Below are positions 25,490-55,719 of a DNA stretch of 64,000 nt, in pieces; position 1 is the first letter of the stretch; every line of letters begins with the position of its first letter. The notes under the pieces were generated by a model. It was not told where the DNA came from, made no database searches, and saw only the letters and a list, made by a program, of their open reading frames with translations. The stretch lies in NCBI RefSeq assembly GCF_007750395.1, contig NZ_CP036281.1:5789001-5853000 (forward strand), written 5' to 3'. The position numbers and the translations under genes are program-made. Origin of the DNA: Polystyrenella longa. Lineage in GTDB: Bacteria; Planctomycetota; Planctomycetia; Planctomycetales; Planctomycetaceae.

Positions 25490-26341
25490 TTACGTTGAAA
25501 GAACGAAACTCCATACCTGTTTTCTAATCACTAACTTTTGTAGTCGCTTGCAAAGTTCAGCCACCGCGTTTCGGGCGTCTTCGCGATGTTCTTTCCGGAT
25601 CCAGAATAAGTATCTCAGGTCTTGCCAGGTGTTCTGGTCGATGTGATCCAGTAGCGGCGTCGGAGGACCGAACGGGCGGAACGTGATGCGACCACCAGGG
25701 ATCTCTTGCAGGATCTTGTAGTCTTGCTTGCAGATGCGATCGTTGAAGTCCTCGTAGTCGAAGTCCGTCTTCAGGTCGAGCCAGTTCTCGACTCTTGCGA
25801 ACGCCAGACAGTATTCGTCTTCGGCACCAGCAGGAACCGCGTTAGTCGCCGCTTTCACTTTGTCGAAGACAGACTTCACCATTTTTCGCATGTGGCAGAA
25901 GGGACAAAGTTTGTACTGACAGAAGTTCTTGTAGTCTCCATGCAATGCCGTCTTGATCGTCGGGCTAGGACACTTACCAACCTTGGCTCTAGTGCCGCCG
26001 AGCATTCTCACCAGATTCCAGATTTCATAGTACCGGCGAATCCAGTGAGTGTTGACACCTCTGAGACGCTGGGGCTCAGTCATCATCTTGCCGTGCTTGT
26101 TCGTCAGGGTCATGAAGTCCTCCCCCAGGAACGTGGCAAACGCTGAGTGATGATAGAGATTGGCTCTTTCGTTACTGATACAGTCGATCTTCTTGGCAGG
26201 GTCGTAGATCGTGTATGCCAGAGCATCGGGATTCTTGAGATACTTTCTCGCCTTACCGGGTTTCCTTTTCCACTCCGAATGCCACTCAGCTGGTTCGTAA
26301 GGATGGGGTTCAACAGGGTCTTTAATTTGAAATTCGTACAT
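25490..26341 (-). CDS. Cys-rich protein of unknown function, possibly replication-initiator-like
   Basis: 283 residues from ATG 26341, chosen because AAGGAG lies just upstream; the frame stays open further upstream but without a better start. The centre has CQYKLCPFCHMRKMVKSVFDKVK (quoted in parts), a CxxxxCxxC cluster like the zinc motif in some rolling-circle Rep proteins. I do not see a clear HUH motif or catalytic Tyr context. A PRF-like C-terminal domain (WQDLRYLFWIRKEHREDARNAVAELCKRL) is helical. The 1.6 kb non-coding DNA upstream would fit an old plasmid origin. Function unresolved. Confidence 0.5.
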   Translation of the reverse strand: MYEFQIKDPVEPHPYEPAEWHSEWKRKPGKARKYLKNPDALAYTIYDPAKKIDCISNERANLYHHSAFATFLGEDFMTLTNKHGKMMTEPQRLRGVNTHWIRRYYEIWNLVRMLGGTRAKVGKCPSPTIKTALHGDYKNFCQYKLCPFCHMRKMVKSVFDKVKAATNAVPAGAEDEYCLAFARVENWLDLKTDFDYEDFNDRICKQDYKILQEIPGGRITFRPFGPPTPLLDHIDQNTWQDLRYLFWIRKEHREDARNAVAELCKRLQKLVIRKQVWSFVLST

Positions 26342-27978
26342 AGCTCTCTCCTTTCGAGGTAGTGTACATCGTCTTGCTAAAAAAGTTACGTCACAAAGTT
26401 GCACGTATCTGCATGCTGTATCCCATACTCATATCTTCGTATGGAATACTATATCTAGTTCTCATTCACTTCGTTCATTCGAACGTCTAACACTCCGCTT
26501 CGCTTAACTTATAACAGCGGCATTCTCGCTCCGCTCGGCGCCGCTGTGGAAAACCCCCAAAGTTAGGTCGCCAACCGTAAAAGGTGGAAGACCGGTTTTC
26601 GAGACGAGATTTGAGAACCTAGCCGAGCCCTGACACGAATCTAGCCGAAACTTTGACCTCGACACAGCTCACAGGCTCGCTGTCATGCGATCGCCACCTG
26701 AGACGACCACTCTATCGAGTTCAAAACCGGGACCTCACAGAGCGGCTCTGAGGAGTTTTTCATTCTGGACGATTTCAGACCCAAAAATAGTGTACGGAAG
26801 AGTAGTCAAATTCTCATTTTTTGAGGGTATACATTATAAATAACAAAAGACTTTTTCCCGGAGCCCCTGAAACGGGCTAATTTGGGCCAGATTTGACGCT
26901 GTACAAACTAGTGTAAATAATCTGCTACCTGGTTAGCCCGATTTGACGTAAGTATGATTAGACACCCTAAAAGTGGTGTTGTTTTAGCTGCATGTACACT
27001 TCACAGAAGATCACAATGAACAATATTTATTTTGAAGAATTCATGAGATTTTTGTTCACTTGAATCGATACCTTCTGGAGAGCCAGTGATGGCCGTGGTA
27101 TCCGGGGTGTGGTACTTTCCCGTAAGTGGGCTCCTATGGTCGAGCATGCTCTGATTCCCAGGGACGGGTAGAGAGCCCACACCCAGGAGATATTGGGCTC
27201 TACATATTTCCCTCTCGCTATCTCCAGACGTAGTTCTAGCGGTTGGCTTTCCTACGCTAAGAAACGCCAAGTATCCTTAGCACTTCTCATAACGTCTCCC
27301 GAGAGCAATGACGCAGTTCTGTAGTCGGTCTTATCAGGAGCAATCACTCTTGTTAAATGGAGACCGCTGAGTAACCGTCCGAGCCTCCTCACAGGTCGAT
27401 AATCCCATCGTTTTGAATCACGAATTTGCCTTATTTCGGTTCAGCAAATCGCTTTGAAGTTTTTTTTCAAAACTTGTGACTTTTCTCGAGTTGAAGAACG
27501 AAGCACAAGTTGGGTAATAGACTTAACCGGTGGCCTTGAGCGTCTTAGAAGGGGATCGTGATACACGACTGTGAAGAAAAAACGATGTTTATAACGAGAT
27601 CAGCCCCTGAATACTTGACCTGAAAAAAACGTGTACGTTTTCCACTCCCGACCCAGACACACCACCATAATGCACTGTCTCACAACAAGTTATGAGTATT
27701 TTCAATGTTTTTATGGTTTGATTATTCGCTAACCTTTTTGATTCTCGATTCTGTTCCAGAGAATGTTTATTTTTCTTCCTCGTTCTAAACTTTTTCCGTC
27801 CCGCCACAGTACTTATTAGACATATTTGAACCTAAATAACGGTTCCATTTGTGTCATATAACATGCACCAGACACGCTAGCTATCAGCAGTTACTGATAG
27901 CTAAAAAAAACTCAAGGGAGCCCGAGTCATTCGATTCGGGCTCCCTTTTTTTATTCCTCACTTTACGAAAGGAACCTC
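26342..27978. other. 1.6-kb region without a supported protein gene
   Basis: It holds short alternating direct and inverted repeats. Examples are a GGCTAATTTGGGCC / GGTTAGCCC pair with twice-repeated GATTTGACG near 26875-26950, and a GC hairpin followed by TTTTT near 26741-26760. The right part (27420-27850) is strongly AT-rich. Leftward frames of 70-90 codons exist but look random. It may be the origin or control region of a former plasmid, or an uncharacterised RNA locus. Confidence 0.4.
27914..27952. terminator. Bidirectional rho-independent terminator
   Basis: Stem AAGGGAGCCCGA (27914-27925) pairs with TCGGGCTCCCTT (27936-27947), followed by a T-run. An A-run precedes it, so it should work on both strands. 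It shields the downstream cassette from upstream transcription. Confidence 0.85.
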
Positions 27979-28347
27979 ATGTCCCACATCGTGCAGATCA
28001 AAACGGAAGTACGGGAACTGGCCTCCATTCAGGCCGCCTGTGTTCGTAACCGATTAACGGAGCCGGTACACGGAACCGTCCAGCTCTACAGCTCCGCAGC
28101 AACCGGGTGGCAGGTCCAGCTGCCCGACTGGAGATATCCCGTCGTTTGTCATACCGACACGGGCCAACTCAGCTACGACAACTACGAAGGACGCTGGGGT
28201 GACCCCGTGCACTTGAATTCCTTCCTCCAGTCGTACGCGGTGGAACAGACCCGCCGCATTGCTCGACGTCAGGGGTACTCCCTGACCGAACAGCGGTTGT
28301 CCGACGGGTCGGTCAAACTCCTACTGCAGACAGGAGGTGTCGCTTGA
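27979..28347 (+). CDS. DUF1257 (Ycf35-like) protein
   Basis: 122 residues, ATG 27979 after GAAAGGAAC. The start MSHIVQIKTEVRELASIQAAC and the block VQLPDWRYPVVCHTDTGQLSYDNYEGRWGD (in parts) are the hallmarks of DUF1257, the family of chloroplast and cyanobacterial Ycf35. The biochemical role is unknown. It is followed by a DUF2997 gene overlapping by four bases and then a Ycf46-like ATPase, a grouping I know from cyanobacteria and planctomycetes. Here it sits beside an integrase. Confidence 0.85.
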   Translation: MSHIVQIKTEVRELASIQAACVRNRLTEPVHGTVQLYSSAATGWQVQLPDWRYPVVCHTDTGQLSYDNYEGRWGDPVHLNSFLQSYAVEQTRRIARRQGYSLTEQRLSDGSVKLLLQTGGVA

Positions 28348-28535
28348 AACAGATAGAAATCATTGTCAGTCCGGAAGGGAGTTCCCGGGTTGTTTCCCGG
28401 GGTTACCAGGGAAGTGGTTGTCAGGAGGCGACCCGGCAACTGGAAGCTGCTCTCGGTAAACGACTGACCGAAACGTTAACTCCCGAGTTTTACTTAACCA
28501 TCAGTAACCCGTCCGAAACGCAACAGCGGCAGTGA
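28344..28535 (+). CDS. DUF2997 protein
   Basis: 63 residues starting at TTG 28344, whose last two bases are in the preceding stop (TTGA overlap). The pattern KQIEIIVSPEGSSRVVSRGYQGSGCQEATRQLEAALG (in parts) matches DUF2997, the habitual partner of DUF1257. Likely translationally coupled. No catalytic motif; probably a small binding partner. Confidence 0.8.
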   Translation: MKQIEIIVSPEGSSRVVSRGYQGSGCQEATRQLEAALGKRLTETLTPEFYLTISNPSETQQRQ

Positions 28536-28591
28536 GCCAGTGCTTACGGTCGCTGTTCGTTTGGGACGGGTTCTTTTTTAAAGGAGAGTTC

Positions 28592-30064
28592 ATGACACTC
28601 ATTCACCTGCGAGAGTACATCGATGCCTGTTTTACCGGCATCTGGATTGAGACAGACGAACCGGACGAAGCGATTCAGGAAGTGCGGCAACTGTCTCAGA
28701 CAGCCGACTGGACATTGTCTGTCTGGGATATTGCCAATGGCTTTGAAGCGAGTGACGGAAGCGAAGCGGCCGATCCTCTAGCTGCCCTGGATCTGTTCGG
28801 AACACATGCGTCCCACACCGGGACCAAACTGTTGATCCTGCGGAACTTTCATCGGTTCCTGGGATCCCCCGAACTGCTTCAGAAGTTGAGTCATCAGCTG
28901 ACGACGGGCAAACACCAGCGGAACTTCGTGCTGATCGTCGCTCCGGTGGTTGATATCCCGGTGGAGCTCCGGAAACAGTTCCTGATCCTGCAGCACGAGT
29001 TGCCCACCCGGGAGAAGCTGCTGGAGATCGCGACTGAGATCGGGAGTCAACCGGGAGAGTTACCTGAAGGAGATGAACGGGAGCAACTGCTCGATGCCGC
29101 CAGTGGCCTGACTCGTCAGGAAGCGGAAGCGGCGTTTGCGTTGTCTCTCGTCCGGGAAGGGAAACTTTCCCCGGCGTCGCTGTGGGAACTCAAGACGAGT
29201 CAGCTCAAACAGAACGGGTTACTGGAACTTCATCGGGGTCAGGAACGGTTCGCTGACCTGGGAGGACTCAACACGTTGAAGGCGTTCTGCGAGCGTACCT
29301 TGCGGACTCGATCGGCTAATTCTCTGGCGAAACCAAAAGGAGTGCTCCTTCTGGGAGTTCCCGGCACAGGCAAAAGCCAGTTTGCCAAAGCCCTGGGCAA
29401 TGAAACCGGACGTCCGACGCTGCAACTCGACATTGGTCGGTTGATGGGCAGCCTCGTGGGGGAATCTGAAAAGAACATCCGACAGGCGCTCTCCATTGCC
29501 GAAGCGATGGCCCCCTGCATTCTGTTCATTGACGAAATCGAAAAAGGGCTCAGCGGAGTTCAATCAGGCCAGGTCGGTGACAGTGGTGTCTCCACGCGAT
29601 TGTTTGGTTACTTCCTGACCTGGCTCAACGACCATCAGTCCGACGTGTATGTGATTGCGACGTGCAATGACATCTCCCGGTTACCGCCGGAGTTCAGTCG
29701 GAGTGAGCGTTTCGATGGTCTGTTCTTTCTCGATCTACCGGTTCAATCCCAGCGGGAGCAGATTTGGTCCCAGTATCTGGAACGGTACCAGCTGGACGTC
29801 TCCCAGACTCTTCCAGATGATCAGGAGTGGACAGGAGCGGAGATCAAGTCCGCCTGCCGGTTGGCCGCTTTACTGGGGGTCTCAGTGACTGAGGCGGCAG
29901 AACATGTCGTTCCAGTCGCCCATACGGCCCGGGAAAAAGTGACGCAGTTACAGCAGTGGGCCAGTGGCCGCTGTCTGTCGGCCGAACTACCAGGGCTCTA
30001 CCAGCAGAGGTCTGCTTCACAACGACGACGTGCCCGGCCTGAGGGGGATCCCGCTCTCAACTAA
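28592..30064 (+). CDS. Ycf46-like AAA+ ATPase
   Basis: 490 residues. The ATG at 28592 is preferred over an upstream in-frame start because AAAGGAGAG lies 5-8 bases before it. The N-terminal 230 residues are the Ycf46-specific domain (ETDEPDEAIQEVRQL, LILRNFHRFL). The AAA module has FADLGGLNTLK, Walker A GVPGTGKSQFAKALG, Walker B CILFIDEIEKGL, sensor 1 VIATCND and the arginine-finger region SRSERFDGLFFLDLP. It probably remodels a protein or nucleic-acid complex with the DUF1257/DUF2997 partners. The C-terminal tail is basic. Confidence 0.9.
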   Translation: MTLIHLREYIDACFTGIWIETDEPDEAIQEVRQLSQTADWTLSVWDIANGFEASDGSEAADPLAALDLFGTHASHTGTKLLILRNFHRFLGSPELLQKLSHQLTTGKHQRNFVLIVAPVVDIPVELRKQFLILQHELPTREKLLEIATEIGSQPGELPEGDEREQLLDAASGLTRQEAEAAFALSLVREGKLSPASLWELKTSQLKQNGLLELHRGQERFADLGGLNTLKAFCERTLRTRSANSLAKPKGVLLLGVPGTGKSQFAKALGNETGRPTLQLDIGRLMGSLVGESEKNIRQALSIAEAMAPCILFIDEIEKGLSGVQSGQVGDSGVSTRLFGYFLTWLNDHQSDVYVIATCNDISRLPPEFSRSERFDGLFFLDLPVQSQREQIWSQYLERYQLDVSQTLPDDQEWTGAEIKSACRLAALLGVSVTEAAEHVVPVAHTAREKVTQLQQWASGRCLSAELPGLYQQRSASQRRRARPEGDPALN

Positions 30065-30108
30065 TCTGCGTATGCCCTTCTGACTTATTCTCAATTAATT
30101 TCACACGA

Positions 30109-30159
30109 CCCGCGATCGGTCTCTCTGTATCAGAGAGTACCGCTGGCGGGTTTTCTTTT
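30109..30159 (+). terminator. Three-tier hairpin terminator
   Basis: Nested pairings CCCGC/GCGGG, CGGT/ACCG and CTCTCTG/CAGAGAG are followed by TTTTCTTTT. It separates the ATPase gene from the coiled-coil gene, whose own GAAAGGAAT ribosome binding site follows. Confidence 0.8.
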
Positions 30160-30179
30160 GCCACTACGAAAGGAATTAC

Positions 30180-31145
30180 ATGATCAGTGTATCCTCAATC
30201 ACCCCTCATTCCATTACCAACTCGGACGAACTGCGGACCCAAATGGGGGCGGTCCGGTTATCCGTTCACTGGCTGGGCACGAGCAAGACGCTCCCGGCAT
30301 CCCAGCAGGCGGAAGCGGCGGCGACGTTCGGCGCCAGCCGGGAGTATCTCTCGGCCCGTAAGAAGCTGATTGATACGCGGCACCCCGCTTATCGTCAGGT
30401 GAGTTCCATCCGGACCCGGATCGTCTCTCTCTGGAAGGGAATGACCGTTCCCTACCCCGATCCCGGTATACGACTCATTCGTCGTGACCGAATTGAAGTC
30501 TTCGAATCGGAGGTGCAGCAACTCCAGGAGGAGCTGCAGACAGCCGTAGAGCAACTTGAACGAGAGTTCGGAGAACTCAAAATGATCGCGCGACAGCGGC
30601 TGGGAGAACTCTTCAACGAAGAAGACTACCCCAATCGGCTGGAGAACCTGTTCCGCATAGAGGTCGAGTACCCCAACGTCGAACCACCGAACTACCTGCA
30701 GCGGCTGAATCCGGAAGTTTACGAGGAAGAATGCCGCCGTATCGAAGCCCGGTTCGAAGAAGCGCTGGAACTGGCGGAAGAATCCTTTCTCCAGGAGTTC
30801 CAGCAACTGGTGACGCATCTCTCGGAGCGATTGTCGGGAGAGACCGATGGGAGACCTAAAGTCTTCCGCGACTCGGCCCTCACCAACCTGACTGAATTCC
30901 TGCAGCGATTTCGCCAGCTCAACATTCGTTCGAATGCCCAGCTGGAAGAGTTGATTGATGAAGTACAGGAAGTGACGTCCGGGCTCTCAGCTCATCACCT
31001 CCGAAGCGATCGCACGGTGCGGGAAACGGTCCGTGGTCAGTTGGAACAAGTGGGAGAAGTCTTGAGCGATCAGCTCGAACTCCGACCCCGGCGTCAGATT
31101 GTCCGCTCTCACTCCCGGGAGGAGGTGACGAGTGATGCAACTTAA
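30180..31145 (+). CDS. Coiled-coil protein of unknown function, 321 residues
   Basis: The ATG at 30180 follows GAAAGGAATTAC. Residues 20-110 contain VRLSVHWLGTSKTLPASQQ and DTRHPAYRQVSSIRTRIVSLW, reminiscent of DUF3150-type proteins found with AAA ATPases in mobile elements (weak recollection). Residues 105-150 and 180-220 are charged heptad-like helices (EVQQLQEELQTAVEQLEREFGEL, in parts). No enzyme motif. It belongs to the DUF1257/AAA cassette and may be the structural or substrate partner of the ATPase. Confidence 0.6.
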   Translation: MISVSSITPHSITNSDELRTQMGAVRLSVHWLGTSKTLPASQQAEAAATFGASREYLSARKKLIDTRHPAYRQVSSIRTRIVSLWKGMTVPYPDPGIRLIRRDRIEVFESEVQQLQEELQTAVEQLEREFGELKMIARQRLGELFNEEDYPNRLENLFRIEVEYPNVEPPNYLQRLNPEVYEEECRRIEARFEEALELAEESFLQEFQQLVTHLSERLSGETDGRPKVFRDSALTNLTEFLQRFRQLNIRSNAQLEELIDEVQEVTSGLSAHHLRSDRTVRETVRGQLEQVGEVLSDQLELRPRRQIVRSHSREEVTSDAT

Positions 31146-31386
31146 AGTGCAACCGGACGGCACCATTCACACGCTGTATCAGGACGACATCGATCTTTCT
31201 TCTCTTGGCCAGACAGAGATCAAACGGGGCTCCCATGTGGAACCGAATGAGGACGCGCACTGGGTGGCCGACTTGGCTCCAGTACAGGGACCAGAGCTTG
31301 GTCCCTTTCTCAATCGGGCCGACGCTCTGAATGCGGAACATCGCTGGCTGGAAACGTTCTGGCTGCCCGCTGTGATCCGAATCTGA
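31135..31386 (+). CDS. Small conserved protein, 83 residues
   Basis: The ATG at 31135 overlaps the end of the coiled-coil gene (GTG 31132 also possible). The block SHVEPNEDAHWVADLAPVQGPELGPF resembles short proteins common in planctomycete and phage genomes. The last 25 residues are aromatic (ALNAEHRWLETFWLPAV). Function unknown; co-transcription with the upstream gene is clear. Confidence 0.6.
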   Translation: MQLKVQPDGTIHTLYQDDIDLSSLGQTEIKRGSHVEPNEDAHWVADLAPVQGPELGPFLNRADALNAEHRWLETFWLPAVIRI

Positions 31387-31415
31387 ATTCACGCTTTATC
31401 AAACTCAGCACACAA

Positions 31416-31446
31416 ACCGGCTTCGAACTCGAGGCCGGTCTTTTTA
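31416..31446 (+). terminator. Rho-independent terminator
   Basis: ACCGGC (31416) pairs with GCCGGT (31434-31439), extended by a TCGA/TCGA pair, then CTTTTT. It ends the cassette transcript. Confidence 0.8.
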
Positions 31447-31493
31447 TGCGCTGAGAAAACAATCTAACTCTCTTTTTACAATGGAATAAACCC

Positions 31494-31709
31494 ATGACAC
31501 AGACTGAACTGATTCATGAGATCGCTCGACATACGGGTGAATCCCAACGCACGATTTCTAACCGTGGTTTTACGCTGCTTGTTCCAGAGTTACCTGAGGA
31601 CAACGATCGGGAACCATTCGTTGTTGACTGGGACAGAACACAGGCAAGTCGCCAGATACCACTCACACTGTACCGCTCAAGCAGGATTCTGAATCCTGAA
31701 TGGGCTTGA
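31494..31709 (+). CDS. Small unknown protein, 71 residues
   Basis: ATG 31494. The N-terminal 25 residues (MTQTELIHEIARHTGESQRT) could be one helix-turn-helix, as in DNA-binding HU or repressor starts. The remainder, with NDREPFVVDWDRTQ, is unrecognised. It has no strong ribosome binding site. It lies between two terminators with a 45-residue membrane peptide gene. Confidence 0.45.
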   Translation: MTQTELIHEIARHTGESQRTISNRGFTLLVPELPEDNDREPFVVDWDRTQASRQIPLTLYRSSRILNPEWA

Positions 31710-31727
31710 TAAAGGAGACGTCTTCAG

Positions 31728-31865
31728 TTGCTTGATTTGATCATACTTTGTGTAGGTGCTTATGTCGCTTACGGGATCATCCAGGAGATTCACAGTTCCT
31801 CAACTACGTCCTCTAAACGCCCGCAACATCGCCCTCGATGTCCGTGTGGCCGACGAAGGCGGTAA
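31728..31865 (+). CDS. 45-residue membrane peptide with Arg/Cys-rich tail
   Basis: The start is TTG 31728 behind a good TAAAGGAGA site. A hydrophobic helix (LLDLIILCVGAYVAYGIIQ) is followed by a Ser/Thr linker and the basic tail RPRCPCGRRRR. The terminator begins six bases after its stop, which supports it as a real last gene. Function unknown. Confidence 0.45.
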   Translation: MLDLIILCVGAYVAYGIIQEIHSSSTTSSKRPQHRPRCPCGRRRR

Positions 31866-31871
31866 TCCTCC

Positions 31872-31908
31872 AAGGCCCTCCCGAACGTTTCGGAAGGGCC
31901 TTTTTTTA
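31872..31908 (+). terminator. Rho-independent terminator
   Basis: AAGGCCCTCCCGAA pairs with TTCGGAAGGGCCTT (one mismatch) across a CGT loop, then seven T. Confidence 0.9.
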
Positions 31909-31976
31909 GCTATTAGAAACAGATAACTACCATTCACGTAATTTCAGATAATGAATTTGCAAACGTTTGCAAATTC

Positions 31977-32285
31977 TCACTGAGATGGTGGCGGTAAATC
32001 ATTAAACCGGGGGAGGCTCATCATTAAATGGTAAGCCTCATCGGTCCTCCTTAAAGGAGGACGACCAAGCGGTCCCGTCGAGACGGTTCGATTCATCTCG
32101 AACTCCTCCGCATCACTCATGCGGATACGAAATCGAGGACGACCTGATTGTGGATTTGAAGAAAAGTCCATCGCTTTTAATTCGCCGGAGCGAATCCAAC
32201 GGATGATCTTTTCCGGCTTAACGCCCCAGAGACGGGCCAACTGCGGAGGTGTGATGAAGTGATCTTCGTCGTTTTGTTTATTCAT
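31977..32285 (-). CDS. Helix-turn-helix (excisionase/MerR-like) DNA-binding protein
   Basis: 102 residues from ATG 32285 (a TTG nine bases upstream is less likely). ITPPQLARLWGVKPEKIIRWIRSGELKAMDFSS is the first-helix and recognition-helix pattern of the HTH_17/excisionase family. It is followed by RPRFRIRMSDAEEFEMNR. The tail is Pro/Arg-rich. Candidate directionality factor or regulator of the integrase module; leftward and single-gene. Confidence 0.7.
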   Translation of the reverse strand: MNKQNDEDHFITPPQLARLWGVKPEKIIRWIRSGELKAMDFSSNPQSGRPRFRIRMSDAEEFEMNRTVSTGPLGRPPLRRTDEAYHLMMSLPRFNDLPPPSQ

Positions 32286-32695
32286 AATTATCAATCCAAT
32301 CTTGAATTACTTCATCATAACACAAGATTGAAGTTGGGAGTCTAAACGAGACCAAGTGGTCGCAAGCAGACTGTTGTCGAACAGTTCAAGAAGTGATCCG
32401 TTGATCGAGTAGGATGACCAACATTGATTGTTTTAAATCTCTAAAAATTGATTAGAGCCAAATTTTATTTGAAAATTTCCTCTCGATCAACATCCTTTGT
32501 TTTATGTGTTATTTCGGAAACTTTGAGTTTGAATAAGCATAGCGTTACTTAAAGCTTGTCTTCACGTCACACAAGATTTCGAGACTGATATAAAATCGAC
32601 TATTGATGAAGAATGTCTACTGGATTTTGTAAAGAAGCCTTCCTCCATTTCACTTCCGAACTATCAATCTATCTTTTTCCAATGTGGGAGAAACA
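32286..32695. other. AT-rich control region between two divergent HTH genes
   Basis: 410 bp with no gene seen. It must contain the promoters for both HTH genes. No strong palindrome was found by eye. Confidence 0.4.
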
Positions 32696-32944
32696 ATGCT
32701 ATATACGGTACAAGAAGCTGCCGAAAAATTGAGCCTGAGTCCGGCCTGTGTTTACAACATGGTAAACACAGGCACGATTCCCCATCGACGAATCGGCGAG
32801 AAGAGAACAACAATTCGGTTTACCGAAGAAGACCTGGAGACCTATCTCGAAAGCTGTCGTCACGGCACGGTCGAGAGCATGCCTGAACAAAGCAAGCCGC
32901 GCCGCAGTACGGCACGGCCTGTTTTAAAGCACCTGAAGTTCTGA
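32696..32944 (+). CDS. Helix-turn-helix excisionase-family protein
   Basis: 82 residues from ATG 32696, preceded by GGGAG. LYTVQEAAEKLSLSPACVYNMVNTGTIPHRRIGE is a textbook HTH_17 excisionase motif, followed by IRFTEEDLETYLESC. It ends six bases before the 3' end of the convergent integrase gene, so it is the natural excisionase candidate for that enzyme. A perfect 12-bp hairpin lies inside the gene. Confidence 0.75.
   Translation: MLYTVQEAAEKLSLSPACVYNMVNTGTIPHRRIGEKRTTIRFTEEDLETYLESCRHGTVESMPEQSKPRRSTARPVLKHLKF
32744..32773. repeat. Perfect 12-bp hairpin inside the excisionase-like gene
   Basis: GCCTGTGTTTAC (32744-32755), a six-base loop, then GTAAACACAGGC (32762-32773). It covers the codons of the recognition helix (ACVYNMVNTG). 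It may be an mRNA hairpin or an autoregulatory binding site. Confidence 0.85.
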
Positions 32945-32949
32945 AAAGA

Positions 32950-33942
32950 TCACGAAGCGTTTTGCAACTGCTGTCTCAAAAATGTCGGGTTCTGAGAAAG
33001 GTGCTGATAGACCTTGCCTAACATCGTAGTGTCCCGATGGCCCATTAACTGTGCCACTGTGATTCCATCGACACCTTTTTCAAGCATCCGTGTGGCGAAA
33101 GAGTGTCGGAAGTTGTAGAGACAGAGCTTCTCTCCTGTTTTCTTCTGGATCCTGTTGAAGCGGCAGTTCACCGCTGTCGGCTTCCAGGGATTACTCTCTG
33201 TGTTTCGCAACAGATTCCCTTCCGGATGCAGAAGTCGATAACGCTCGCTGATTTCCCAGGCAACTTCATTCAAGTAGATAACACGAACTTGCTTTTTCCC
33301 TTTCGCTTCTTCGCGAGGGAAGACCCAGCGTCGATTCTGCAAATCAATGTGGCGAGCTTCGACCCGTAGTAACTCCTGCGGTCGTGCTCCCGTCTCCCAA
33401 GCGAGCGTCAGTAGGTCGCGAAACTCCTGATCTTTTACCAGAGACAGAATGTGAGCGTACTCCTCATCCTTCAGGATACGCTCGCGGCGGCCTCCCGGTG
33501 GTTTCTCCAGATGCATGATCGGATTTTGATCAATATGACCAGATTTGAGTGCCCAGTTGAACGCCCGTTTAATGGTGGTTATCAGTCCACGCCGATGTCC
33601 GTCGGACCAGGTTGGGTTGGAGTCAACCCACCGCTGCACGTGAAAAGGTTTGAGCTGATGCACCAGCAGATCGGGGTGCATGGACAAAAAGGCCTGCAAT
33701 CGTTCCCGGTAATAGACAAACGTGGCCTCGGAGCGATTGTGGAGAGTCCACTCCAGAAACTGGTCACAAATGAACGCAACCGAGTGGCAGTCGACTTCGA
33801 CTCGCGGAAATTGGGCCATCAGCTCGTGATACTTCTGGAACGCGAGCGTTTCGTCCTGAGCGAGACGGTATTGTTTTCCGCGAATCTGGACGTACCAAGT
33901 CTGGCGGTCCTTGCGGAAGAAGGGCTTAGGTTGACGGGGCAT
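32950..33942 (-). CDS. Tyrosine recombinase / integrase
   Basis: 330 residues, ATG 33942. The N-terminal arm and core-binding domains cover about 1-150. The catalytic domain has box I TGARPQE (Arg near 187), a beta-hairpin Lys in EEAKGKKQVR, box II LYNFRHSFATRM (Arg 279, with Tyr in place of the usual first His) and GHRDTTML, and the nucleophile in KVYQHLS (Tyr near 312). It would integrate and excise an element at the tRNA-Lys site about 190 bp upstream of its start. Its position left of the half-site suggests it belongs to the left-hand element rather than to the prophage. Confidence 0.92.
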   Translation of the reverse strand: MPRQPKPFFRKDRQTWYVQIRGKQYRLAQDETLAFQKYHELMAQFPRVEVDCHSVAFICDQFLEWTLHNRSEATFVYYRERLQAFLSMHPDLLVHQLKPFHVQRWVDSNPTWSDGHRRGLITTIKRAFNWALKSGHIDQNPIMHLEKPPGGRRERILKDEEYAHILSLVKDQEFRDLLTLAWETGARPQELLRVEARHIDLQNRRWVFPREEAKGKKQVRVIYLNEVAWEISERYRLLHPEGNLLRNTESNPWKPTAVNCRFNRIQKKTGEKLCLYNFRHSFATRMLEKGVDGITVAQLMGHRDTTMLGKVYQHLSQNPTFLRQQLQNAS

Positions 33943-34002
33943 TAAAAAACCTCCCAGCTAAAGGAAACAAAAACGTACAGCTGGAAGCCGAGAGGCTTTC
34001 GA

Positions 34003-34034
34003 ACTCCCCGGTCAGCTCTAACTGATCGGGGAGT
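34003..34034. repeat. 13-bp hairpin in the integrase/att interval
   Basis: ACTCCCCGGTCAG and CTGATCGGGGAGT pair fully (one G-T) across a six-base loop. There is no T-run of four or more directly after it. It could be a terminator for rightward transcripts or a structural element of the attachment region. Confidence 0.7.
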
Positions 34035-34090
34035 CTTCTATTGTATCCGCAGGTTGCAAACTCTGACAAATAAGTCTGACAAACGGGTAA

Positions 34091-34125
34091 TAAAAAAGCA
34101 CCAAACGTCGTAAGTCGTTTGGTGC
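34091..34125 (-). terminator. tRNA-Lys terminator
   Basis: Read leftwards, GCACCAAACG pairs with CGTTTGGTGC (34098-34107 with 34116-34125) and is followed by six T. It stands six bases beyond the tRNA 3' fragment and in the same orientation. Confidence 0.85.
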
Positions 34126-34130
34126 CATAG

Positions 34131-34172
34131 TGGAGGCGCAGGGACTTGAACCCTGGACCTACGGATTAAAAG
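34131..34172 (-). other. attachment half-site: 3' part of a tRNA-Lys(TTT) gene
   Basis: Leftward sequence CTTTTAATCCGT, then the T-arm CAGGGTTCAAGTCCCTG and acceptor half CGCCTCCA. This is the 3' 42 bases of a tRNA-Lys from the anticodon loop onward. The bases before it do not pair with the anticodon or acceptor stems and no D-arm is present, so the tRNA is incomplete. This is the classic duplicated core left by integration into a tRNA gene. CCA is not encoded. Confidence 0.85.
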
Positions 34173-34383
34173 TTAGGTTTCGAGTGTTTGCTCACGTTGA
34201 ATCATACCGGGGCAAATAGAACGCTATAGGCGTAGAGTCTACTCGTCAGCCTCCGACTTGCTTAGTCAGGTCGCGCCACATTGACAGTTTCCGTTGCGCT
34301 TCCGTTGCGCCTCGACAGAAAAAGACGGTTCAAGAACGTGCGACGTGCTGTGACCAGAAACAAAATTAAAAAAGCGGAAAGTT

Positions 34384-48512: not shown

Positions 48513-48836
48513 ATGGCCGCTGAAAGCGATATTGAAGCACGAATGCGGCAAATTGGTGATCGGGTTACGACTGCCGAAGGGGAGATACGCCGGCTCGATG
48601 AACGGGAAACCAATCGACATGCGGTGGCTCAGGGCACGATTGATCGTCACGAGAGACGCATCGACGAGCATGAAGTCTGGCTGGATGGGGACAACCAATA
48701 CCCGGGTATCAAATCGGACTTGTCGAATCTTAAAAGTCAAATGCAAAAACTTTGGTGGATGCTGGGAGCCTTCTTCGCGGCGATGGCGACGGCGGTTGTT
48801 GGTGTCCTCGTTCAAAACTTTTCAGGAGGTGACTAA
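48513..48836 (+). CDS. Coiled-coil protein with C-terminal membrane helix (XhlA-like)
   Basis: 107 residues from ATG 48513. Heptad-like helix MRQIGDRVTTAEGEIRRLDE...HERRIDEHEVWLD, then LWWMLGAFFAAMATAVVGVLVQ as a C-terminal membrane anchor. Layout matches hemolysin XhlA/holin-associated phage proteins. The ATG of the protease gene overlaps its stop, so the two are coupled. Confidence 0.6.
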   Translation: MAAESDIEARMRQIGDRVTTAEGEIRRLDERETNRHAVAQGTIDRHERRIDEHEVWLDGDNQYPGIKSDLSNLKSQMQKLWWMLGAFFAAMATAVVGVLVQNFSGGD

Positions 48837-50584
48837 TGAGGTCATCAGAGCATTCAAAAGAGTTGGCCGGGAACGGTCGTTTTATTGTTTTCAGTGTGGT
48901 GGGCGTCATTCTGATTCTGGCGTTGGCGGTGGCTCACGCTAAGGCGGGGCCGCCTGATCCGTGGGTTCGAATGACCAAGCCAAGTGGCTGCAGTGGTGTT
49001 GTGTTTGCCGCTTCTAAGGAAAACGGAATCTGGTTACAGACCTGTCGGCATTGTGTGACCGAAAAACAGGTCGTCTCTTTCCGCTTCTTCAAAGATGGGC
49101 AGGCGAGTCCCCCTGTCGATGGCGTGTGCGTTGCGCATCACCATACGGCTGATATTGCGATTTGCTGGGTGGATGCCTCGCAGCTTCCAGAGCTACCTCA
49201 ATTTGTGGAAGTGATCAAACCGAAGGATGGATTACGAGTCGGACAGACGGTGTATACGGTGGGGAGTTTTGCGGGGGGGACGACTGCTCCAGCTTTACAG
49301 AAGACGGTGATTCGTTCCATCGAAAACAACGGATACGATATCACGCTCGATGAAGGTTGCTGGCACGGTCATTCGGGTGGGCCGGTAGTGACGGTCGAAT
49401 CGGAAGGAGCCCCGCCGAAGCTGGTCGGGCCGGTCTGGGGATTCCGGGGACAGAAGCCGGGGGTTTCCCTGGTGACAGGACCGGAAGCGATGCATGACCT
49501 ACTGGCTGAGGTACGCAGGCAGGCTCAATTCTCTGTGCTCGACAACGTGGAGCGTACAGAAGACTCCACTTCCGCCATTGAACGCCCTCGGCTCTATGTG
49601 TACGGCAATACGCCTGCCTTTGATGCCAAGGTCACCTCCAGCAACCTGAACCAGTTCTTTGAGCTGGTCTATACCGATCAGAGTTACGTCGCTTCCGCGA
49701 AATCGCCGGTGGTGTGGTGGACCGACAAGCGGGGAAAGGTGAGGTATCACGAATCGGCTGATGACGTGGAACACCTGGTACGGTCTTACAACATGACGGT
49801 GGATGAACAGGCTCAATGCCCGAATGGGTATTGCCAGCCTCAGCAGCCGATCCAGCCACAAGTGCAATTGCCATCACTCCCGGTGGAAGGTTGGGGTTCG
49901 AAGTGGCAGGGGCTCACGAATCCGACTCCCCCACCACCGACGACGCAACCTGTGATTCCTGATACGACCGAAGCTGATCGATTGCGACGGGAACTGATGG
50001 AGGCACAAAAGGATTTGCGCGACGCGGAACGGGAGCGGGATGACCTGAAAGCGAATCTGGACGAACATCGAGAACAATCGTTTGAGGATCGACAGGATCT
50101 CGAAGTAGCAAAGCGGGAACTGAAGCGAGTGGAATCCGAACTCGATGACCTGGAAAAACTCCGAGTGAAACAAGACACCCGCATTGAGGGGCTTGAAGAG
50201 GATAATGAATCGCTTGAAGAACAATTAATGGAATCAAAAAAGGTCCCCCCTCCCCTGCAAACGGATAGTTCTTCACTCGCTGGGGCAGAAGCGAGCGGAA
50301 ACTTATCGACATTGGAAACCGCTTCCCAGAAGGTTCAGAAGCACAAGGAGGAACAGCGGGAAATGCTGTCGACCGCCAAAGTGTTGTCGACCGTGGGTGT
50401 CGATCCGGAAGTGCTGGAAGAAGTCCCCCAGAAGATCGATGAAGCGGTGAGCCTATGGGTCTGGTTCCGGGATCACTGGCTGGAGGCGTTGATTGCTTTA
50501 GTGCTGTTGATTGTCGGCGGCAATAAGGGAGTCAACGTGGTCGCTGAGAAAAAGGCGGCGGCCAAGATTCCGGCAAAAACATAA
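48836..50584 (+). CDS. Membrane-anchored trypsin-like serine protease with coiled coil
   Basis: 582 residues. Transmembrane/signal helix at 16-36 (FIVFSVVGVILILALAVAHA). Trypsin-like domain at 45-235 with the triad His72 (TCRHCV), Asp106 (HTADIAICW) and Ser180 (GHSGGPVV). A Pro/Gln-rich hinge near 335-375 is followed by a long charged coiled coil (about 378-470) and a second hydrophobic helix (LEALIALVLLIVGGNKGV) near the C-terminus. The protease domain therefore probably faces the periplasm, tethered at both ends. Such a protein in a phage late region may act in lysis, host-envelope remodelling or exclusion; none is proven. Confidence 0.8.
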   Translation: MRSSEHSKELAGNGRFIVFSVVGVILILALAVAHAKAGPPDPWVRMTKPSGCSGVVFAASKENGIWLQTCRHCVTEKQVVSFRFFKDGQASPPVDGVCVAHHHTADIAICWVDASQLPELPQFVEVIKPKDGLRVGQTVYTVGSFAGGTTAPALQKTVIRSIENNGYDITLDEGCWHGHSGGPVVTVESEGAPPKLVGPVWGFRGQKPGVSLVTGPEAMHDLLAEVRRQAQFSVLDNVERTEDSTSAIERPRLYVYGNTPAFDAKVTSSNLNQFFELVYTDQSYVASAKSPVVWWTDKRGKVRYHESADDVEHLVRSYNMTVDEQAQCPNGYCQPQQPIQPQVQLPSLPVEGWGSKWQGLTNPTPPPPTTQPVIPDTTEADRLRRELMEAQKDLRDAERERDDLKANLDEHREQSFEDRQDLEVAKRELKRVESELDDLEKLRVKQDTRIEGLEEDNESLEEQLMESKKVPPPLQTDSSSLAGAEASGNLSTLETASQKVQKHKEEQREMLSTAKVLSTVGVDPEVLEEVPQKIDEAVSLWVWFRDHWLEALIALVLLIVGGNKGVNVVAEKKAAAKIPAKT

Positions 50585-53270: not shown

Positions 53271-53780
53271 GTGGTTCCTCGGCTGGATGATGTCGCTAAC
53301 TTTGCCGGGGTGTCGAAGCGGACGGTACAGGAATGGATTGCCCGGGGATGCCCTGGTCGACCGAAACATTACGACCTTTCCGAAATGGTGCAGTGGGCTC
53401 GCGAACATGTGTGGGTGCCTCGGCGGACGGCGGCGAAAACGTTTGAAGAAGATGGTGACCCCCTGTTGTCTGATGGTGGGACGGGTTCGGTCTGGCTGGA
53501 AAAGTATCGTCACGAAAAGACACTTGAGGTCCGGGCGAAACGTCTTCGAGATATGGGCGAACTGGTGGCGACCAGTGAGATACAGGATGGATTGAACGTG
53601 CTCAGTAATGTCATTCGCCAGGCGGGTGAATTACTGCAGCGGACTCATGGCGAAGAAGCCTATGAGATTCTGGAAGAAGCGATAATCGAATTCGAGACAC
53701 AGGCAGAGGAATTATTCGGTGATAGCGACCGGGCGGCGAAACTCATTCATGGCACCGAGGACGAAGACGCCCTGGTTTAG
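53271..53780 (+). CDS. Terminase small subunit (Nu1-like)
   Basis: At least 169 residues from GTG 53271. PRLDDVANFAGVSKRTVQEWIARGCPG is the Nu1 winged helix-turn-helix; WLEKYRHEKTLEVRAKRLRDMGELV and the following helices match the Nu1 assembly domain. It binds cos/pac DNA and recruits the large subunit. The frame extends upstream to about 53202 with a basic segment (GKAKTAKGKSARRSPEEKP) and a fine AGGAGGGG site at 53190, but no ATG/GTG/TTG in frame there. The true start may thus be the ATT at 53202 or this GTG. Confidence 0.8.
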   Translation: MVPRLDDVANFAGVSKRTVQEWIARGCPGRPKHYDLSEMVQWAREHVWVPRRTAAKTFEEDGDPLLSDGGTGSVWLEKYRHEKTLEVRAKRLRDMGELVATSEIQDGLNVLSNVIRQAGELLQRTHGEEAYEILEEAIIEFETQAEELFGDSDRAAKLIHGTEDEDALV

Positions 53781-55719
53781 GCAGTTGTCCCAGCGGTCCC
53801 GTGCGCCCCGCCTGCGGCCGATGGGCCAGTTCGCGGAAGAAGAGATCGTGATTCCCGATGGCCCTTACGCCGGACGGCGGTTCAGCTGCAATCGACAACC
53901 CTTCAGTCGACTCTGGTTTGATGCGGTGGACTCGGGGAAGTGGCGACGGCTGGCGGCGACAGGCCCTCAGCAATCCGGGAAGACACTCGACTGCTTTATC
54001 ATTCCGATTCTCTGGCACCTGTTTGAATTCAAAGAGACAGTGCTGTGTGGCGTGACGTCGATGGCGATGGCCAAAGAGAAATGGGAGATTGATATCCTGC
54101 CCGTTATCCGGCGGTCGCGTTATCGGGACCTATTGCCACGTTCGGGGAAAGGATCCCGGGGTGGTCAGGTCGACATGATTCAGTTCGAACATGGGCCGGT
54201 CCTGAAGTTCGTGACTGGGGGTGGTGATGATAAATCTCGATCCCACTTTACGAGTCGGGTGCTGGTGGTGACCGAAGTCGATGGACTGGATGAATCAGGT
54301 GCGACCAGTCGTGAAGCTTCCAAGCTCAAGCAGATGGAGGGGCGAACATCGGCCTATGATGACCGGGCCCGGATTTACCTGGAGTGTACTGTTTCGACAG
54401 CAGAGGGAGCGATCTGGCAGGAGTACCAGCGAGGAACCCAATCACGCATTGTGATGCCCTGCCCTCACTGTCATGCGTGGGTCACTCCTGAACGTGATGA
54501 CCTGGTGGGATGGCATGAGGCGGAACACGAACACGCGGCCAAGCAGTCGACGCAGTTCAGTTGTCCTGAGTGCGGAGAATGCTGGACCGAAGAAGAACGA
54601 GCCCAGGCGAATCAGGAATGCCGACTCCTGCATCGGGGTCAGTCCCTCAATGAGGAGGGAGAGATCGAAGGAGAGCTCCCCCCGACCGACACGCTCGGCT
54701 TTCGCTGGAACGCGGCGAACAATCTCTTTGTTTCCGCCGGTACGGTCGGGGCGCGAGAGTGGCGTGGGTCGAATCAGCTTAACGCCGATGAGGCAGACAA
54801 GGAGCTGTGCCAATGGGTTTGGGCGATTCCGCCGAAGCCCTTATCGGAAATCCTGAACCCGATTGAAGAGTCGGTCCTGCGGGGGAAAGTGATCTCGCTG
54901 CAGAAACTGTTTACTCCACCGGAAACGACGATGGTGACGGTCGGGCTCGACATCGGCAAATACTTCCTGCATTACGTGGCCATGGCCCTCACCAGTGGGG
55001 GGAGATTCCACATTGTCGACTACAACGAGATCAAAGTGCGGCACGAAGGGAAACTCTACAAGGACGCCCTCCCCGAAGCATTGAATCACTTCAAAACAGA
55101 GACGGTGGATTTAGGCTGGGTCAACGCGGATGGACAGCCGATCTACGCCGACCGCATCTGGATCGACTCGGGTTACTGGGAATCGACCGACCTGGTCTAT
55201 CAGTTCTGCCGCGACCAGGGGGCCCGCTGGCAACCCATGAAAGGCTACGGTTTTGCTCAGGAGACCAAGCAACAATACAACCAGCCGAAATCGACCGGAG
55301 CGACGGTCTCCTACATTGGTACCAACTATCACCGCAGCTGGTTATCTAAGAAACGAACGCACCTGATGGAGGTGAACTCCGACTTCTGGAAAAGCCGGTT
55401 CTGGCAACACATTCTGACCGATCCCCGTAACCCGGGCTCACTCACGATCTGTGATGGAACCGTGCAGGACCATCGGTATCTTTTCAAACATTTGATGGCG
55501 GAAGAAGAACGGGTCGAATTCATTCCTGGCAAAGGGGAGAAGAAAGTCTGGATCCAGCGAGGCCGGAACAATCACTACCTCGACGCAGGATACATTGCGA
55601 CGGTCGCGATGGATTACAACGAACATTGTCGCCAGGTACAGATTGCGGCGCCTCCACCTCAAACAACCTCTCCATTGCTTAATCCCTACGGACAAGCGTT
55701 TTCTATTCTCGATCGATAA
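53749..55719 (+). CDS. Terminase large subunit (GpA family)
   Basis: 656 residues; ATG 53749 overlaps the small subunit. The ATPase has Walker A GPQQSGKTLD (about residue 74) and Walker B RVLVVTEVDGLDE (about 180). A zinc-binding insert has CPHCHAW and CPECGECW. The nuclease half contains VGLDIGKYFLHYVAMAL and later WIDSGYWE and the YIATVAMDYN end. It cuts concatemeric DNA and drives it into the prohead. Full length for the GpA family. Confidence 0.92.
   Translation: MAPRTKTPWFRQLSQRSRAPRLRPMGQFAEEEIVIPDGPYAGRRFSCNRQPFSRLWFDAVDSGKWRRLAATGPQQSGKTLDCFIIPILWHLFEFKETVLCGVTSMAMAKEKWEIDILPVIRRSRYRDLLPRSGKGSRGGQVDMIQFEHGPVLKFVTGGGDDKSRSHFTSRVLVVTEVDGLDESGATSREASKLKQMEGRTSAYDDRARIYLECTVSTAEGAIWQEYQRGTQSRIVMPCPHCHAWVTPERDDLVGWHEAEHEHAAKQSTQFSCPECGECWTEEERAQANQECRLLHRGQSLNEEGEIEGELPPTDTLGFRWNAANNLFVSAGTVGAREWRGSNQLNADEADKELCQWVWAIPPKPLSEILNPIEESVLRGKVISLQKLFTPPETTMVTVGLDIGKYFLHYVAMALTSGGRFHIVDYNEIKVRHEGKLYKDALPEALNHFKTETVDLGWVNADGQPIYADRIWIDSGYWESTDLVYQFCRDQGARWQPMKGYGFAQETKQQYNQPKSTGATVSYIGTNYHRSWLSKKRTHLMEVNSDFWKSRFWQHILTDPRNPGSLTICDGTVQDHRYLFKHLMAEEERVEFIPGKGEKKVWIQRGRNNHYLDAGYIATVAMDYNEHCRQVQIAAPPPQTTSPLLNPYGQAFSILDR

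Follow-up and report, generated by a model that had tools for sequence, protein, structure and literature searches.

The cyanobacterial and plastid Ycf35/Ycf46 cluster brings together proteins of the families DUF1257 and DUF2997, and cyanobacteria and plastids also have a Ycf46-type AAA+ ATPase. To our knowledge, there is no settled mechanism for Ycf35 or Ycf46, and we know of no function for the families DUF1257, DUF2997 and DUF3150; Ycf46 of Synechocystis is reportedly linked to the use of CO2. Cluster g of Synechocystis is given as duf2997-ycf35-fed7, with a ferredoxin, in the portion of PMC4284462 available to us. The genes ycf35 and ycf46 are conserved in plastids; the accessible part of a paper on plastid gene losses (PMC5940233) gives no function for them, and in the excerpts at hand of PMC5874918 and PMC10954446 Ycf46 is merely part of a superfamily label. 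DUF1257 and DUF2997 are common to this cluster and to a cassette of six genes analysed here in the planctomycete Polystyrenella longa, whose genome is a single contig (NZ_CP036281.1) of 6.1 Mb. The stretch studied, below called the window, comprises the 64,000 nucleotides at positions 5,789,001–5,853,000, and coordinates refer to it unless stated otherwise. In place of the ferredoxin, the planctomycete cassette holds a DUF3150-fold protein and two small proteins, SM84 and SM71, and it is mobile. We tentatively read it as an AAA+ machine of mobile elements that remodels DNA-bound complexes, with a rough probability of 0.45. The genes of the window copy are the following:

27979–28347, + strand: DUF1257 (Ycf35-like) protein, 122 amino acids (aa), by family alignment (Pfam match below the cut-off)
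28344–28535, + strand: DUF2997 protein, 63 aa (Pfam E = 1.5e-13)
28592–30064, + strand: Ycf46-like AAA+ ATPase, 490 aa from its ATG (Pfam AAA, phrog_8638, motifs)
30180–31145, + strand: 321-aa helical protein with a predicted DUF3150 fold (homologues, predicted-structure match)
31135–31386, + strand: SM84, small conserved protein of 84 aa (family in 86 of 93 loci)
31494–31709, + strand: SM71, sixth conserved small protein, 71 aa (family in 70 of 79 loci)

The first four genes, claimed earlier in a sequence-only reading of this DNA, are present, intact and co-directional at 27979–31145, with SM84 following. The compact Ycf35-DUF2997-Ycf46-coiled-coil cassette of that reading stands as far as these four genes go, but the set is larger by SM84 and SM71, and the SM71 gene lies outside the originally reported range, which ended at 31386. 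The DUF1257 and DUF2997 genes overlap by 4 bases, and the helical-protein gene and the SM84 open frame by 14; the frames of the ATPase and of SM84 are open already from GTG codons at 28532 and 31132, respectively. For five genes compared between the window copy, a second copy in the same genome and one copy from the same genus, the ratio of nonsynonymous to synonymous substitution rates (dN/dS) was 0.04–0.27; they are therefore real genes under purifying selection.

Gene content was compared across 117 non-redundant loci (labelled L below; genomes are labelled G), made up of 56 stretches fetched around DUF2997 matches other than that of the window, many of them ending at contig ends, a scan with the helical protein (80 loci kept of 233 confirmed), one plasmid and viral contigs (9 loci); 108 loci were counted after the plasmid and eight viral loci had been set aside. 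The order DUF1257-DUF2997-ATPase-helical gene was the same in all 69 planctomycete loci holding the four genes. All six genes were found in 28 of the 56 fetched stretches, and the set was complete in 45 of the 54 loci in which the three upstream genes were present along with enough downstream sequence. Upstream of the helical gene, the ATPase was found in 79 of 89 loci that had at least 2.5 kb of sequence there; for DUF1257 as well as for DUF2997 the count was 63 of 74 loci with at least 4.5 kb. Some of the misses may be due to inserts between the ATPase and helical genes, as long as 7.2 kb, that push genes past the fetched flank. SM71 was scored in loci with enough downstream sequence, where it kept the same place; neither the second copy of the host genome nor the same-genus locus L051 showed it. 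Among 59 genomes, comprising that of the window and its relatives, 28 had DUF2997, and copy numbers ran from 0 to 7. A second type of cluster was seen in 3 of the 56 stretches (L041, L073, L084), combining a Ycf46-like ATPase, a DUF1257-like gene (E = 0.0021 in L041), DUF2997 and a radical-SAM-like gene, c17, named by eye; the helical gene was not found in these three.

The ATPase matched Pfam AAA (E = 2.6e-28) and, over residues 28–496, phrog_8638 (E = 3.4e-88), and the window copy carries the motifs GVPGTGKS, ILFIDEI and IATCN as well as the near-invariant R390 and R393. Its one intact P-loop/ATPase site lies in the C-terminal half; the N-terminal half is without a P-loop, and the pattern occurred in the N-terminal part of just 1 of 25 aligned proteins. 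This two-half layout is co-linear with phage and cyanobacterial-plasmid relatives; a Pseudanabaena plasmid homologue is 34% identical over 92%. The best relatives in a profile search of the PDB were CDC48/p97-type AAA proteins. The label Ycf46 is a putative one, given for resemblance.

MoxR-vWA is a known kind of AAA+ chaperone with co-chaperone, proposed to take part in jumbo-phage virion assembly in the section of PMC7824862 at hand. In cyanophage MinM2 (Synechococcus) and on the Paraburkholderia plasmid pPHS1_P, a DUF3150-family gene lies between a MoxR/AAA-domain ATPase and a VWA-like gene. Such modules likewise place the genes for an AAA+ ATPase and a DUF3150-family protein near each other on a mobile element, but the AAA clade is different and a VWA-like protein stands where the cassette has DUF1257 and DUF2997. 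The cassette was not assigned to MoxR-VWA: the best Pfam AAA family of its ATPase was the classical AAA, AAA_5 reached 21.3 bits against a cut-off of 22, and no VWA match was obtained among the cassette proteins with Pfam. In the case of IetAS, which pairs an AAA protein with a subtilisin-like protease, the cassette's AAA domain matched IetA models (best 67 bits), but the N-terminal half and the partners differ; membership was rejected, as no S8 protease appeared among the cassette and neighbour proteins scanned with Pfam, a set that covered part of the window's open reading frames. In corndog-group mycobacteriophages (Dylan gp95-gp94), as in the cassette, a Ycf46-like ATPase directly precedes a protein with a weak match to the DUF3150 fold. 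Their ATPase is 28–29% identical over 89% of the query; unlike in the cassette, DUF1257 and DUF2997 were not found nearby by profile (Catdawg, L091). The cassette as such was not found in the portions of the literature searched, in agreement with its having been called undescribed. Ycf and DUF1257 do not occur in the available part of PMC7159879, nor do Ycf46, DUF1257 and DUF2997 in that of PMC12839542; the cassette is not described in the accessible part of PMC10907252, and no paper on DUF3150 was found in the literature searched.

Of the two small partners, DUF2997 scored 50.8 bits against a Pfam cut-off of 24.1. The window's DUF1257 protein scored 16.5 bits (E = 0.01) against a curated cut-off of 22.2; its membership is supported by the family alignment, which brings the planctomycete proteins together with proteins of plasmids and phages that carry the DUF1257 annotation or match the family, and a viral relative in L181, which matched Pfam at E = 8.6e-8, aligns with the family. 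The AlphaFold model of DUF1257, with a mean predicted local distance difference test score (pLDDT) of 87.9, had no PDB fold match at E ≤ 0.001. PDB profile searches with the helical family, DUF1257, the TOPRIM-like family and c2 (the last two being recurrent neighbours, see below) gave nothing at E < 0.05, and SM71, SM84 and c2 had no match at E < 0.001 in PADLOC, NCBIfam, Pfam or PHROGs.

The AlphaFold model of the helical protein (19-row alignment, pLDDT 82.9) matched the predicted viral DUF3150 protein BFVD A0A6J7WV52 with E = 1.2e-15 and template modelling (TM) scores of 0.71/0.77, and plasmid homologues of the protein carry the DUF3150 annotation. The model had no PDB fold match at E ≤ 0.001. 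With Pfam DUF3150, 1 of 19 family members matched (E = 0.043) and the window member did not; the Pfam tallies on this family were mostly coiled-coil noise. The gene for which the sequence-only reading had proposed a coiled-coil partner is there, but, going by the predicted fold, its product is better described as a DUF3150-fold protein. A weak fold match was also obtained to a protein of mycobacteriophage Dylan, BFVD S5YZA3 (E = 8e-4, TM 0.31/0.35), which by its length of 275 aa corresponds to gp94, encoded directly after the AAA-ATPase gp95.

Of the 392 planctomycete genomes, from 266 genera, 29 had a match to the helical gene; these belong to 19 genera and have up to six copies. Most carriers (23 of 29) belong to the window's family or class, and three of the six outside its class have partial matches alone, at E 7.7e-19 or weaker. 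Twelve complete or near-complete genomes hold 29 copies, and for 12 of these a tyrosine or large serine recombinase lay no more than 10 kb away, the linkage count that the sequence-only reading had called for, while 1.14 were expected from random placement and none of 4000 simulations reached 12; counted by genome, the linkage was 6 of 12. In these counts, same-genome copies are not independent, three G279 copies are close relatives, the integrase matches are among those listed, some genome sizes are rounded and one integrase on the second contig of G363 is omitted. No recombinase was found within 20 kb of 16 of the 29 copies, as would suit an ordinary host chaperone operon lying near mobile genes by chance; with patchy occurrence at 0–6 copies, the recombinase enrichment, and copies on an island and on plasmids, that explanation is highly improbable.

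The second copy of the host genome (from 1,740,681 in genome coordinates) is cargo of an integrative mobile element, as attachment (att) repeats and an integrase mark it: it lies inside a 25.7-kb tRNA-Ser island with a 19-bp direct repeat at 1,721,354 and the tRNA-Ser 3' end, a tyrosine integrase at 1,745,708–1,746,940 and a serine recombinase at the opposite end. Just upstream of this copy, a short open frame (G000 1739719–1740114) is related to the N-terminal part of a trypsin-like gene of the prophage described below (window 48836–50584). Taken with the patchy, multi-copy occurrence, the recombinase linkage above chance and the plasmid and phage relatives, this sister copy supports the claim that the cassette is mobile; a fixed chromosomal feature free of mobile linkage it is not. 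Points on the other side are the 16 of 29 copies with no recombinase within 20 kb and the 5.5-Mb genome G009 with its seven DUF2997 loci (L052, L054, L056, L057, L067, L068 and the apparently decayed L077), where the six helical genes compared are mutual nearest relatives, an amplification inside a single lineage.

Next to the window copy, the integrase pointed out earlier is indeed present, together with the following features:

32684–32944, + strand: HTH_17 protein (E = 2.2e-15), possibly excisionase-like to judge from its size and place
32950–33942, − strand: tyrosine integrase, beside the copy of the tRNA-Lys 3' end, outside the prophage and on the cassette's side
34129–34173, + strand: 45-bp copy of the tRNA-Lys 3' end, left end of the prophage (second copy at 79955–79999)

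The prophage extends in the window frame from 34129 to 79999, past the right edge, and looks complete, with 45-bp repeats at tRNA-Lys, a GpA-type terminase (53719–55719) and its own integrase just inside the right repeat (78712–79845). The cassette being part of it was ruled out, since the att repeats exclude the cassette and the prophage has an integrase of its own. A left att repeat for the element of the window copy was not found in the 54 kb leftward with comparisons at 45, 20 and 16 bases. To the left of the cassette, a defence-rich stretch (2676–24872) contains McrBC (an AAA_5 protein and McrC), type I restriction-modification (RM) and Mrr, besides an RNase_H_2/AAA_12 helicase protein, TY-Chap2 and a metallo-beta-lactamase RNase-like protein. 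The protein at 25490–26404, between Mrr and the cassette, has a weak match to Rep_1, a replication protein family (E = 0.023).

Several families recur beside the cassette. A beta-clamp homologue of about 450–530 aa, which matches DNA polymerase III beta clamps in a PDB profile search (E = 5.8e-9), lies downstream in 25 of 59 loci with at least 5 kb of sequence. Of 70 loci, 12 have a GajA-like TOPRIM protein somewhere upstream of the helical gene, and in 10 it is inserted between DUF2997 and the ATPase. It matches GajA of Gabija at positions 397–480, which we take to be the TOPRIM part, in 6 of 11 members (best E = 4.1e-6), but this optional insert is a stand-alone protein. Moreover, a PD-(D/E)XK nuclease cluster had members in 4 of the loci fetched first, a DNA ligase belonged to an insert cluster of 3 loci, the c2 family lay downstream in 12 of 44 loci with at least 6.5 kb, and a serine recombinase upstream in 11 of 57. 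In the window itself, no member of the clamp, c2, serine-recombinase or TOPRIM families was found. The recurrent DNA-processing neighbours suggest clients on DNA and favour a role there; defence, replication and partition, the roles put forward by the sequence-only reading, are all candidates. No partition genes were recognised by eye among the recurrent flank clusters listed, but two plasmids and mycobacteriophages have ParA or ParB genes in the vicinity of the module, so partition may still be its role. Other inserts or neighbours were DUF6878 (L043, L045), DUF6915 (L043, L045, L050) and ThiF/E1-like genes, ThiF being named by eye (L038, L043, L045).

The main rival to a remodelling machine is an undescribed anti-phage or anti-plasmid defence, in which the AAA+ machine would sense or capture DNA complexes of an invader, with a TOPRIM protein, a PD-(D/E)XK nuclease or restriction enzymes nearby acting as accessory nuclease. 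The GajA-like insert, the patchy and multi-copy occurrence and the McrBC, type I RM and Mrr genes left of the window copy would all suit it, as would relatives of the window's type I RM genes, which in L063, L065 and L070 are at most 2 kb away from the cassette, and a Geminocystis plasmid with DUF1257, DUF2997 and AAA among ATP-binding, RloB and DUF4007 genes. As to the suggested linkage to defence genes, N6_Mtase lay within 10 kb of 4 of 29 copies, against 0.22 expected, but within 5 kb of none of the 29. A known anti-phage system was rejected, as PADLOC 2.0.0 matched the cassette through the AAA domain alone (IetA; weakly TRIP13 and others), and this also speaks against the defence explanation, as does the lack of a constant effector. 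Phages and plasmids, moreover, carry the module themselves, which fits element biology at least equally. Defence is on balance doubtful as the explanation.

Relatives on plasmids and phages extend the comparison. A Nitrospirota plasmid has AAA, DUF1257, DUF2997, DUF3150 and an SM84 homologue in a row, with the AAA gene first. In nine IMG/VR contigs with the helical gene, profiles found the ATPase in 8, DUF1257 in 7, DUF2997 in 6 and SM84 in 5. Phrog_2, presumably the terminase large subunit, was matched in 6 of the 9 and also in 11 of the 14 bacterial and archaeal genomes used as controls, and Terminase_6N in three, two of them above the cut-off; the IMG/VR contig L175, close to chromosomal copies, may be a provirus. 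Phage Tunturi_3 has, within 5 kb, the ATPase (233 bits), a DUF3150-like gene (131 bits) and weak DUF2997-like (28 bits) and SM84-like (25 bits) genes. The stretches shown of five annotated phages contain ligase and exonuclease, ParB and Ku, DnaB (two phages) or primase genes. In two phages the ATPase comes after lysis-region genes, a position that, with the existence of phage relatives and the role proposed for MoxR-vWA, would fit a phage-derived virion-assembly chaperone left as an island remnant. In three other phages, however, the module lies among DNA-metabolism or unnamed genes, and the window cassette is outside the prophage and under purifying selection, so such an origin is very unlikely.

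AAA, DUF1257 and DUF2997 also lie close together, with varied partners, on Paenibacillus, Pseudanabaena, Geminocystis and Planktothrix plasmids, and AAA with DUF2997 on a Rhodococcus plasmid; DUF3150 was not annotated in the stretches shown of these five. On the Rhodococcus and Paenibacillus plasmids, 4Fe-4S genes follow DUF2997. This position, the fed7 of the Synechocystis cluster, the interpretation of viral CobST as cobaltochelatase in the part of PMC8651126 at hand, c17 beside the second cassette type and a CusA/CzcA-like metal-efflux gene, c7 (named by eye), near L038, L049, L061 and L081 would be in keeping with a maturation chaperone for a metal or cofactor protein, comparable to CobS/CobT and the cyanobacterial Ycf35-ferredoxin cluster, with mobile carriage incidental. 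Around the six-gene cassette, however, no recurrent metal-cofactor enzyme was seen by eye among the listed clusters, and the close recurrent neighbours that can be named act on DNA, which makes a maturation role distinctly unlikely.

Two terminator-like hairpins flank parts of the cassette:

27914–27947, + strand: terminator-like hairpin of 15 pairs followed by a T-run, 31 bases 5' of the DUF1257 gene
31416–31439, + strand: terminator-like hairpin 3' of the fifth gene, a weak candidate (the region has 8 sites of this kind, shuffled sequence 6.5)

Upstream of the DUF1257 gene, at most 160 bases away, such a hairpin was present in 8 of 68 loci (the window, L032, L069, L062, L053, L134, L045 and L035), while its rate in mononucleotide shuffles was 0.000. 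The spacing was 30–31 bases in three scored loci of the window's genus, and the changes between the window and L032 still allow pairing via G-T pairs. The upstream hairpin is possibly an attenuator or insulator. A promoter scan gave 3 sites against 3.1 expected, and Rfam had no match at gathering scores over 26500–34300.

The reading as a remodelling machine for DNA-bound complexes builds on the genes present and their order, on their conservation and purifying selection, on the mobility of the cassette, on the match to the DUF3150 fold and on clamp and TOPRIM genes as recurrent neighbours. Several observations weigh against it: the gene order differs on the Nitrospirota plasmid and on viral contigs L178 and L182; 34 of 59 loci showed no clamp, and none was seen next to the window copy; the metal-efflux gene recurs near four loci; and many copies, as given above, have no recombinase nearby. 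Other carriers of the triad of ATPase, DUF1257 and DUF2997 pair it with 4Fe-4S proteins, ferredoxin or Hsp70, and the engine can therefore serve clients other than DNA-bound ones. As a remodelling machine, the Ycf46-type ATPase, judging from its AAA family, would probably form a ring and pull on a protein client with ATP, in a complex with DUF1257 and DUF2997 as its fixed small partners and with SM84 and SM71 as putative accessory subunits. The DUF3150-fold protein may serve as a scaffold or adaptor that picks the client, and could be exchangeable because it is common to the separate MoxR-VWA modules; the triad may be the fixed engine because it recurs in clusters of plasmids and cyanobacteria where DUF3150 was not seen. 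The client would most likely be a DNA-bound complex (clamp, replication, recombination or nuclease) belonging either to the element or to a competing one, and the candidate purposes are the element's own replication and attack or defence between elements.

A wider, unlikely extension of this reading is that Ycf46, DUF1257 and DUF2997 would form a general, swappable AAA+ engine of mobile elements, which with a DUF3150 adaptor would seize or remodel replication or clamp complexes on DNA, for conflict between elements or for the element's own replication, and of which the chloroplast ycf35 and ycf46 would be domesticated survivors. Overall, the uncharacterised families DUF1257, DUF2997 and DUF3150 stand in one recurring order on islands, and DUF3150 is common to the MoxR-VWA modules, which together lead to the adaptor-engine hypothesis; the cassette may mark a system of defence or inter-element conflict that is missing from PADLOC 2.0.0.

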